Below are positions 53,128-59,809 of a DNA stretch of 64,000 bases, in pieces (position 1 is the stretch's first letter; each line of letters starts with the position of its first letter). The DNA lies in NCBI RefSeq assembly GCF_002160255.1, contig NZ_NFKF01000003.1, positions 124,001 to 188,000 of the forward strand, written 5' to 3'. A program made the position numbers and the translations under genes. The stretch comes from Olsenella sp. An188. GTDB lineage: Bacteria; Actinomycetota; Coriobacteriia; Coriobacteriales; Atopobiaceae. The notes beneath the pieces are model-generated. The model saw only the letters and a list, made by a program, of their open reading frames with translations. It did no database searches and was not told where the DNA came from.

Positions 53128-53330
53128 CCGCACAATTTCCGATTTGTGCGGACCTCGCCTCGCTCGCGGCGGATCTTACCGGCGCGAGAAGAACCTCAAC
53201 TGGCGTTTTTCCTCCAAACGCCCCGCCCCCGCCGCACAATTCCGGATTTGTGCGGCGGGGCGGAGCCGTCTCGCGGCGGCGGGGGCGGAGCCGTCGCGCG
53301 GCGGCGAGGGTGGGGCTGTCGCGCGCCCTG
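53128..53330. repeat. Palindromic repeat family 2, locus 2, with GC-rich tandem repeats
   Basis: Family 2 palindromes at 53128-53151 and 53232-53255 flank GCGAGAAGAACCTCAACTGG (53185). Next to them is an imperfect 25-bp tandem repeat (units at about 53257, 53281 and 53306, core GGCGGAGCCGTC). They lie between the convergent cupin and acetyltransferase genes. Confidence 0.75.
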
Positions 53331-53340
53331 CGACCCTGCC

Positions 53341-53613
53341 CTAGGCGATGAGCGCGGCGCGCTCGGGGTGCTTCTCGAACCAGCTCACGGCATAGGAGCA
53401 CGTGGGCCGCGCGGCGAGCCCGCTCGCCGCGATGCTTGCCACGGCACGGCCCATAAGCTCGCCCGCGACGCCGCGCCCGCGCAGGGACTCGTCCACGAAG
53501 GTGTGGTTGATCTCCGCGACGCCGGGCTCCACCTGGGGGAAGGTCACCTCGGCGAGCACGTTTCCGCCCCCGCCCAGATACTGCACGCGGTCGCGCTCCA
53601 TGACGACGTCCAT
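53341..53613 (-). CDS. Small GNAT-like acetyltransferase (YjdJ type)
   Basis: 90 residues. AEINHTFVDESLRGRGVAGELMGRAVASIAASGLAARPTCSYAVSWFEKHPE matches the short GCN5-related family PF14542/YjdJ, with the Arg-x-x-Gly-x-Ala acetyl-CoA loop. The substrate is not known. Transcribed toward the cupin gene. GAGGAGC lies before the ATG at 53613. Confidence 0.9.
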   Translation of the reverse strand: MDVVMERDRVQYLGGGGNVLAEVTFPQVEPGVAEINHTFVDESLRGRGVAGELMGRAVASIAASGLAARPTCSYAVSWFEKHPERAALIA

Positions 53614-53774: not shown

Positions 53775-54461
53775 ATGTCTGGCCTGAACCTCGATGGTCG
53801 CGACCGCGCCCTGTGGGTGGGGCTTCTCGCCCTGTGCGCGGCGAGCGCCGCGGCGTACCTGCTGTGGGCGCTCCCCGCGATGCCGGAGACCGTCCCCGTG
53901 CACTGGGGTGCCGACGGCGCCGCGGACGGGTGGGGCCCCAAGGGGTCGACGGTCTTCATGGGAGCCGTGCTGCCGCTCCTTGTCCTCGCGCTGCTCTTTG
54001 CCGTGCCGCGCCTCGACCCGCGCGGCGAGGCCTTCAACCGCTTCAAGGGCGTCTACCAGGGATTCTCTGCCGCCTTTGTCGTGTTCATCGTAGTCGCGGG
54101 CTGGCTCACGCCCCTCACGGCGTTCGGCGCGATCCCCTCGGGCTCCCCGGTCGTGAGCCTCATCACCTTTGGGTTCATGGGTCTGCTCTTTGTGGGGCTC
54201 GGCGTGGCGTGCCCGCGGATCGAGCCAAACTACACCTTCGGCATCCGCCTGCCGTGGACGCTGGCCGACCCGGACAACTGGCGGCGCACGCACCGCTTTG
54301 CGGGCCCGGTCTTCGTGGTCGCGGGCGTGGCCACGGTCGCCCTCGCGCTCTTCTCGGCGTCGCTTCCCGAGGCAACGCTGGTGGCGGCGCTCCTCGTGGT
54401 CACCCTCGGGGGCGTGGGCGTGGTCGCGCTCTACAGCTTCGTGATCTGGCGCCGCGGCTGA
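53775..54461 (+). CDS. SdpI/DUF1648 family membrane protein
   Basis: 228 residues with six hydrophobic segments. LPAMPETVPVHWGADGAADGWGPKGSTVF is the DUF1648 motif, and PRIEPNYTFGIRLPWTLADPDNWRRTHRFAGPVFV is the SdpI signature. In Bacillus, SdpI gives immunity to the SdpC toxin and sequesters SdpR. No toxin or SdpR gene is next to it, so the role is unknown. GGAGGCTGCG precedes the ATG. Confidence 0.92.
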   Translation: MSGLNLDGRDRALWVGLLALCAASAAAYLLWALPAMPETVPVHWGADGAADGWGPKGSTVFMGAVLPLLVLALLFAVPRLDPRGEAFNRFKGVYQGFSAAFVVFIVVAGWLTPLTAFGAIPSGSPVVSLITFGFMGLLFVGLGVACPRIEPNYTFGIRLPWTLADPDNWRRTHRFAGPVFVVAGVATVALALFSASLPEATLVAALLVVTLGGVGVVALYSFVIWRRG

Positions 54462-54504
54462 GGAGTCCCCGCGGCCGTTTGGGGCGTGCCTTGGCCTCTC
54501 CTCC

Positions 54505-54630
54505 CGGTTGTCAGTGGATTTTGGCGAGAAGCCCGAGTAGCCAGCGCCCCTCGTCTCAAAGACCCGCAGGTAGAGAAATGGCACCAGCAAGGTGATACTT
54601 CGGGAGGGCAAGAAAAACCACTGACAACCG
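54505..54630. repeat. 126-bp element with 13-bp inverted terminal repeats
   Basis: CGGTTGTCAGTGG at 54505-54517 and its reverse complement at 54618-54630 bound a non-coding unit. A GGCGAGAAG copy is just inside the left end (54523) and another lies outside the right end (54651). No target-site duplication is evident. MITE-like in form, but a single copy in this window. Confidence 0.55.
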
Positions 54631-54709
54631 CCTGGGGGGGACAAGGCGCTGGCGAGAAGGACCGGCGGCCCGGCGCCCGCCCTCGGATGTGGGCGCGCTG
54701 TGGGCGGCC

Positions 54710-54738
54710 TTGCGGCCGCCGGGCCCTTGTGCCATAGT
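54710..54738 (+). promoter_or_regulatory. Promoter of the mgtA transcript
   Basis: TTGCGG (54710-54715), 17-bp spacer, CATAGT (54733-54738). Transcription from about 54745 would give a 5' leader of roughly 250 nt before mgtA. Confidence 0.6.
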
Positions 54739-54788
54739 CACGGCACTGCAAGGCGCGCGACGCGCGCGGACCACGAGGAGGTGCGACC

Positions 54789-54854
54789 ATGAACGACCGA
54801 AGTAGCGATGCCTGCGGCGCCGGGTCGCATCGACCTTGCGTGAGGGTCGCCTAG
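54789..54854 (+). CDS. 21-residue leader peptide upstream of mgtA
   Basis: ATG at 54789 follows AGGAGGTGCGACC and encodes MNDRSSDACGAGSHRPCVRV plus a final Ala, then TAG. It is not a functional-length protein. The stop codon lies inside the right arm of a 9-bp inverted repeat whose left arm lies in the peptide coding sequence, a classic leader-peptide attenuator layout. Its position resembles MgtL of Enterobacteriaceae, but the sequence is unrelated. Confidence 0.55.
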   Translation: MNDRSSDACGAGSHRPCVRVA

Positions 54855-54923
54855 GCATCGCCGGGCACCCGCCCAAGACCCCAGACAACCGAGCACGCAC
54901 GCCGCCGGGCGCCCCGAGGCGCC
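54805..54923 (+). promoter_or_regulatory. Structured mgtA leader (possible attenuator)
   Basis: Inverted repeat GCGATGCCT (54805-54813) and AGGCATCGC (54853-54861) encloses most of the leader peptide. A second GC stem GGCGCC-CCGA-GGCGCC is at 54908-54923. I do not recognise an M-box or yybP-ykoY consensus, so a magnesium or manganese riboswitch is not claimed. Confidence 0.45.
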
Positions 54924-54997
54924 GGGCGACTCCGTGCGGCCCGCTCGCGGGCATCCCCCTCGACCAGCCGGAACCTTAGGTATTGGGAGGTGTCAGG

Positions 54998-59314: not shown

Positions 59315-59510
59315 CTCTTTTCTGCGCCGGGACCGCGTCCCACGCGCGTCTGGTGAATCTGGCTGAGAGTGTCTAGCGAATGCCCACGTATCCCCGGTCT
59401 TCCTGCCGATCCGACGGCGGCGCCACCCGCGCTGCGGGGCCCATTCCCCACTCGGTCGACGTTGCCAGTATGGCGCGCCCTCCCACGCGCCGTCAAGGGG
59501 CGCTCGCTCG

Positions 59511-59809
59511 GCGCACAATTTCGGATTTGTGCGACCGGCGGGACGCACTGGATGGCAAAACCCCAGTTGGAGGTTCTTCTCGCCCGGGAAAACGCCTCTG
59601 CGGTGCTCCGGCTTCCGCACAATTCCGGATTTGTGCGGCCTCGGCGCGCGCGACGATCGCGCTTCTCGCCCCGCCGTCCACCCGGCGCACAATTCCGGAT
59701 TTGTGCGCTTGCGGAGGGGGCGTCGGTGAGAAACCCCAGCTCGCCGGGACTTCCGCTTAGAAAACCGGAGTCGTCCCCACCCTCATTCCGCACAATTCCA
59801 AATTTGTGC
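59511..59809. repeat. Palindromic repeat cluster, family 2, locus 3
   Basis: Four palindromes at 59511-59533, 59615-59638, 59685-59708 and 59788-59809, consensus GCACAAWTYCGGAWTTGTGC. The first spacer contains AAACCCCAGTTGGAGG and CTTCTCGCC (59576). Another CTTCTCGCC is at 59662 and GGCGAGAAGGACC at 59855. This occupies most of the 600-bp divergent gap between the ABC-F and TetM-like genes. No ORF supported. Confidence 0.8.

Follow-up and report, generated by a model that had tools for sequence, protein, structure and literature searches.

A short open reading frame ahead of mgtA in Olsenella sp. An188 and its likeness to ribosome-based magnesium attenuators

The mgtA leader in the window, which is the whole 64,000-nucleotide stretch of DNA analysed here, is best read as a translation-dependent Mg2+ attenuator that would work like the enterobacterial mgtQ and mgtL leaders, and we give this reading a probability of about 0.6. 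We state a likeness rather than membership because the window peptide lacks the paired early acidic residues of MgtL and MgtQ and its leader has no firm pairing at the mgtA Shine-Dalgarno (SD) sequence (3:4 below). The preliminary description of this DNA had suggested translation-dependent control of magnesium uptake. That suggestion stands as the best reading, with the leader ORF and its SD conserved and related N-termini found in several phyla, although the hairpin that proved to be conserved is a different one.

The mgtA leader and its ORF

The product of the gene downstream of the leader (Table 1) scored above the cut-offs of two profiles for MgtA, TIGR01524 (987 bits, cut-off 610.75) and NF011702 (999 bits, cut-off 975). 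The leader has a length of about 250 nt, as originally described, and holds the 21-codon ORF. Its upstream neighbour encodes an SdpI/DUF1648 protein (53775–54461). An imperfect inverted repeat of 35 nt (80%) flanks 90 nt at 54488–54647; this element has 13 further matches in its own genome at 70–96% identity, located in about 11 places (some overlap or adjoin); it is a repeat dispersed through intergenic regions and reaching about 135 nt in length. Translated frames at around 53140–53350 and 59370–59770 contain repeated stretches resembling QFRICA/TIPDLCA, a hint that the genome has a further palindromic repeat of the dispersed kind.

Table 1. Positions of the leader features in the window.
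Feature	Position	Strand	Remark
Promoter-like site, TTGCGG-N17-CATAGT	54710..54738	+	TTG...CATAGT kept in relatives
Segment 1: leader SD and bases up to the start codon	54774..54788	+	pairs with segment 2
SD of the leader ORF, GAGGAGGTG	54775..54783	+	relatives differ in first base only
Leader ORF, 21 codons, MNDRSSDACGAGSHRPCVRVA	54789..54854	+	codons 1–14 conserved in four relatives
5' arm of inverted repeat	54805..54813	+	repeat search; crosses pairing 1:2
Segment 2: anti-SD in leader ORF, codons 12–17	54823..54838	+	pairs with segment 1
3' arm of inverted repeat, begins inside the stop codon	54853..54861	+	repeat search
Candidate segment 3, could pair with the mgtA SD	54855..54879	+	-23.5 kcal/mol, 8/200 shuffles
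Conserved block ahead of mgtA, ends in mgtA SD GGGAGGTG (54985–54992)	54936..54992	+	alignment of five leaders
mgtA, Mg2+-importing P-type ATPase, 933 aa	54998..57799	+	NCBIfam profile matches

A perfect SD followed by an ATG-initiated ORF of 12–60 codons arose in 2 of 1,000 dinucleotide shuffles of the leader. When the leader was compared by blastn with 140 genomes of the family, credible matches came from its own genome and from four genomes of the same genus; the leaders of these four relatives are 73–74% identical to that of the window, and their MgtA proteins share 74–78% identity with it. In five further genomes the matching stretches covered 29 to about 54 nt. Codons 1–14 differ between the window and the four relatives at two synonymous third bases only. 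At codon 15 the residue changes and the sequence diverges beyond it; the ORF has 28 codons in the relatives, with the stop codon elsewhere. The window peptide starts with MNDRSSD, which places acidic residues at Asp3 and Asp7, and N2 and S5 at two other early positions. A Pfam search with this peptide returned no match. Judged from its sequence, the 21-codon ORF is real, beyond chance, and it is probably translated; the perfect SD, the shuffling result and the conservation of codons 1–14 bear out its earlier characterisation as translated-looking.

The “good promoter” reported upstream of this ORF fared less uniformly. The TTG...CATAGT elements, with a spacer of 17–18 nt, are kept in five of five leaders (the window and its four relatives), whereas a stricter consensus scan of the window leader found no promoter. 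A scan of the same leader for intrinsic terminators was likewise negative, identifying no hairpin with a U run before mgtA, and an attenuator of this type was rejected for the window on that basis. Other leaders of the genus (including L044, L049, L053 and L045) carry a GC-rich hairpin and then a U-rich stretch between the leader ORF and mgtA, with GGGCCGC-type hairpins and a U run recognised by eye in several of them (L049, L045). Judged by eye, this arrangement looks like an intrinsic terminator. As the window has no such hairpin, the output step may differ inside one genus.

Pairing of the leader start region with the ORF

Four regions were defined for the analysis of pairing: the leader SD and start (region 1), the ORF from codon 9 (region 2), the spacer (region 3) and the mgtA SD (region 4). 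Pairing was tested for each sequence against its shuffles because broad alignments yielded next to no structure with RNAalifold (energies of -1.0 and -7.7, with another run finding only a helix inside the ORF). As a whole, the window leader folds like its shuffles (z -0.52).

The 1:2 duplex of the window reaches -24.0 kcal/mol (z -2.48), with 5 of 200 shuffles as good, and the pairing is kept in the four relatives with one G-C/G-U difference in the inner helix. Across the family, 1:2 was significant at p ≤ 0.05 in 40 of 53 leaders, with a mean z of -2.81 and 77% of values below -2. For the remaining eight pairs of regions, mean z in the same 53 leaders lay between -0.50 and +0.09. The equivalent test on ordinary genes gave a mean z of 0.13 for 150 high-GC and -0.01 for 150 low-GC genes, with 3% and 4%, respectively, below -2. 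These comparisons show in statistical terms that the leader SD and start are able to pair with the latter half of their own ORF. Outside the family, 1:2 reached p ≤ 0.05 in 17 of 38 leaders that were picked partly for their N-terminus, and the mean z was -2.13 in the 29 of them long enough for the test of all regions. In L118, the pairing extends over 15 bp across the start codon.

Covariation was assessed in ten leaders chosen for alignability, whose kinship makes the p-values optimistic. Pairing 1:2 scored 0.182, a value as high in 1 of 500 shuffles, and the stricter measures were weak (28/500 for pairs changed on both sides and 250/500 for further pair types). A second helix inside the ORF, sharing segment 2, scored 0.230 (1/500), with 7/500 for pairs changed on both sides and 267/500 for further types. 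In six closer leaders (alignment A6), 92% of cells pair and 1:2 covariation is not significant.

The hairpin emphasised in the preliminary description was an inverted repeat that includes the stop codon of the ORF. This repeat is present, with its 3' arm starting in the stop codon, but it is not the hairpin that stands out as conserved, which is the one formed by 54774–54788 with 54823–54838. A 9-nt inverted repeat at comparable spacing occurs in 121 of 1,000 shuffles of the leader, so the repeat alone is not significant. Inspection by eye indicated that 7 of its 9 pairs are kept in the four relatives (in two of these, one of the pairs is G-U), that its 5' arm is invariant and that there is no covariation. 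Given the shuffles, the invariant arm and this lack of covariation, we rejected the idea that the stop-codon hairpin is the central element. Because pairing 1:2 crosses the repeat, the two are mutually exclusive unless a pseudoknot forms. Absence of the ORF or hairpin from relatives had been named as the outcome that would refute the original proposal; it is the ORF that is conserved, the stop-codon hairpin persisting only to the extent just given.

Pairing at the mgtA SD is uneven among the closest leaders: the four relatives gave 36, 45, 8 and 57 of 200 shuffles, compared with the value for the window in Table 1. Neither 3:4 nor 2:3 is enriched among the 53 family leaders (mean z -0.34 and -0.40). 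Outside the family, 3:4 reached p ≤ 0.05 in 19 of 33 measurable leaders, and in the set of 29 leaders its mean z was -2.10 and that of 2:3 was -1.12, with the other six pairs at -0.32 to +0.10; 1:2, 3:4 and partly 2:3 are enriched in these leaders. In L222, 2:3 comprises 18 bp with one bulge. The early codons had no enriched pairing with regions 2, 3 or 4, and the N-3 value outside the family, a mean z of 0.10, did not bear out the idea that GGAAGU in these codons pairs with the anti-SD.

Leader ORFs ahead of mgtA in other bacteria

A short SD-led ORF is often found upstream of mgtA homologues even where the DNA no longer aligns. In samples of genomes, MgtA was identified at E ≤ 1e-200 in 11 of 196, 26 of 246, 26 of 250 and 68 of 246. 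For the family, partial mgtA matches lacking the 5' end were left out, and one (L074) of 40 regions retrieved in two batches was too short. The family set comprised 69 regions, among which L024 gave no start. From the other 68 regions, 53 leaders were selected by SD and position; 6 regions were set aside as near-duplicates and 9 because no ORF in them was usable. Of the 68, 8 have no candidate ORF and one has a distant ORF only. Of 80 named loci, 73 were entered, and L180 was left out of the counts for having too little upstream DNA.

In dereplicated regions, from which all peptide frequencies given here are taken, an SD-led short ORF with Asp or Glu at residue 2 or 3 precedes mgtA in 39 of 53 leaders of the own family (2.4% in shuffles), 14 of 35 Clostridia (1.3%), 8 of 19 Bacilli (2.4%), 4 of 7 other Coriobacteriia (0.7%) and 27 of 70 named loci (1.7%), the last set partly overlapping the others. 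Neighbouring gene-like ORFs, which served as a control, match this pattern in 5 of 261 cases. The Clostridia and Bacilli sets, named after the classes of their centre genomes (of the Niameybacter, Lacrimispora and Lactococcus loci), include four loci from these three genomes, which were chosen for their leaders; with the four removed by hand, the counts are 12 of 32 and 7 of 18. In 21 of the 35 clostridial regions, 11 of the 19 from Bacilli and 43 of the 70 named ones, there is no ORF with Asp or Glu at these residues. In a further set of 20 regions, ten of which lack a readable mgtA start, such an ORF is present in 4 of the 10 readable ones.

Leader peptides that resemble one another at the N-terminus are encoded before mgtA in several phyla. 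Examples are MDADSSKPC and MSDSHSRRH in the own family, MESQSINSP in Lactococcus cremoris and MDPDGRDSH in a Spirochaetales MAG, together with MEGSHSRKT, MDSDSSPQR, MEEGSSKVI and MDDSSSHRW. A leader pattern searched in the 140 family genomes gave 18 matches, with none for the reversed-pattern control. Sixteen of these lie at mgtA, 15 by mgtA coordinates and the sixteenth (G121) by tblastn; for the other two (G105:C189:974-1002 and G132:C3:190519-190547), no MgtA was found in the downstream stretch that was fetched. Five genomes (G021, G019, G544, G554 and G570) have two mgtA-like genes in tandem or close together, and no leader ORF was found before the second copy in G021 (L075) or before either copy in G019 (L017, L081).

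Proposed mechanism, alternatives and known systems

We propose that the short ORF with its strong SD is translated, as its conservation suggests. Its SD and start can pair with the latter half of the same ORF, as the statistics above show. The progress of ribosomes through the first codons would then decide which downstream helices form, and hence the expression of mgtA. By analogy with Salmonella mgtQ and mgtL, ribosomes would complete the ORF when Mg2+ is ample, leading to the fold in which mgtA is off, and would pause or fall off early when Mg2+ is low, allowing an alternative fold in which mgtA is on. We infer from these systems that ribosomes respond to Mg2+ here as well. In the homologues outside the family, the off state would consist of 1:2 with 3:4, in which region 4 is the mgtA SD, and a switch to 2:3 would give the on state. 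The last step in the window may be translational or transcriptional.

Direct binding of Mg2+ by the RNA, through an M-box-like structure or a new aptamer, is an unlikely alternative, in which the ORF would only shape the expression platform. Two observations fit it: the block ahead of mgtA is almost invariant in the alignment of the window with its four same-genus relatives, and a TCCCGGGATTGCGAGGTG block, or close variants of it, recurs across genera at the mgtA SD in many family leaders, a feature that the ORF model leaves unexplained. Against it, Rfam searches at the gathering threshold identified no family match in the window, and laxer thresholds gave nothing relevant in ten related loci or the window leader. 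The M-box covariance model (RF00380) likewise had no match in the window, the ten related loci or the leader, and we rejected the M-box or any other Rfam family as the identity of this leader. In addition, the ORF, the N-terminus of its peptide and pairing 1:2 give the strongest signals shared across phyla.

Somewhat more doubtful is the possibility that the leader senses how much tRNA-Ser(GCU) is available, or some other stress on translation, in place of Mg2+, with AGU codons as the sensor. AGU encodes 66 of the 106 serines at codons 2–10 of high-GC leaders versus 8 of 147 in the N-termini of other genes, and 52 of 76 versus 18 of 99 in the low-GC sets, with p-values made optimistic by the kinship of the leaders. 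This preference could reflect either slow decoding or an RNA motif. However, the downstream gene encodes a Mg2+ importer and, in the published account as far as it was available, serine starvation in B. subtilis slows UCN rather than AGC/AGU codons.

Simple self-occlusion, in which the ORF would only couple translation to mgtA or limit ribosome entry without sensing, appears improbable. Pairing 1:2 would indeed restrict entry at the leader SD, and no anti-SD for mgtA is enriched in the family, but this explanation leaves unaccounted for both the acidic, AGU-coded N-terminus and the 3:4 and 2:3 pairings outside the family. That the ORF encodes a small protein acting in trans on MgtA is highly improbable, since despite N-terminal residues that are alike between phyla, the C-terminal halves vary in length and sequence among close relatives (21 versus 28 residues), the peptide has no counterpart in Pfam and the second half of the ORF is constrained as RNA.

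Returning to the attenuator reading, we tentatively suggest a wider extension, which we hold to be somewhat less probable than the reading itself. The leaders may represent a class of leader peptides that sense Mg2+ and are widespread, occurring in Coriobacteriia, in Bacillota and in one or more spirochaetes. They would control MgtA through ribosomes that fail early, at Asp/Glu and AGU serine codons, with a hairpin that shuts their own start codon; as a class they would be distinct from the enterobacterial mgtL/mgtQ systems and exceed them in size. If this is true, Gram-positive and gut bacteria would generally control MgtA by the ribosome-based magnesium sensing described for enterobacteria, and the AGU preference and self-shutting start would be new and directly testable features. 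Among the papers listed from the literature searched, which included few subscription papers or preprints, none was seen from its title and the opening of its abstract to describe such leaders outside enterobacteria, bar the uORFs of the mycobacterial M-box; earlier reports may exist.

The comparison with known systems is confined to the portions of the cited papers that were accessible. The M. tuberculosis pe20 M-box carries uORFs and features an SD/anti-SD exchange (PMC12810186). It thus shares with the leaders described here a link to Mg2+, small ORFs and an exchange of this kind, and differs in the M-box itself, of which none was found in the window leader or related loci. The mgtL-mgtA leader of E. 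coli and Salmonella adopts mutually exclusive folds and makes use of EPDP/proline codons, and of Rho in Salmonella (PMC11282234, PMC11552253), the EPDP motif being that used by E. coli MgtL (PMC11282234). A short SD-led uORF in an mgtA leader is found in the window too, and early acidic residues in many homologues and mutually exclusive folds add to the likeness; some homologues have acidic residues at positions 2 and 4 as in MgtL (MDADS, MDSDSS, MDPDG). The window peptide, in contrast, has neither these residues nor an EPDP motif, and its leader matches no Rfam family.

In Salmonella, mgtQ is an intergenic uORF of 8 codons before mgtB, and the mgtQ-mgtB region forms stems 1:2 and 3:4 or the alternative 2:3, with the transporter RBS in 3:4 (PMC8092293). 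Asp2 and Glu5 of mgtQ are needed; they bring about early abortion, which leads to transporter synthesis (PMC8092293). The leaders analysed here differ from this accessible description in their longer ORFs (18–44 codons in the family) with AGU-coded serines, in their location in the mgtA leader and in segment 1, which is the leader's own SD and start; the window additionally has N2 and S5 in place of Asp2 and Glu5, and no firm 3:4 or 2:3. The likeness lies in a short ORF before a gene for a Mg2+ P-type ATPase, in acidic early codons in many leaders and, in the window, in the ORF with its computed pairing 1:2 at the uORF start. The leaders outside the family, in which 1:2, 3:4 and 2:3 are enriched, fit the mgtQ layout well. 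The initial view of this leader as unlike mgtL or M-box leaders is thus upheld in that its sequence differs from mgtL and has no M-box match, whereas its layout resembles the published mgtQ/mgtL regulation.
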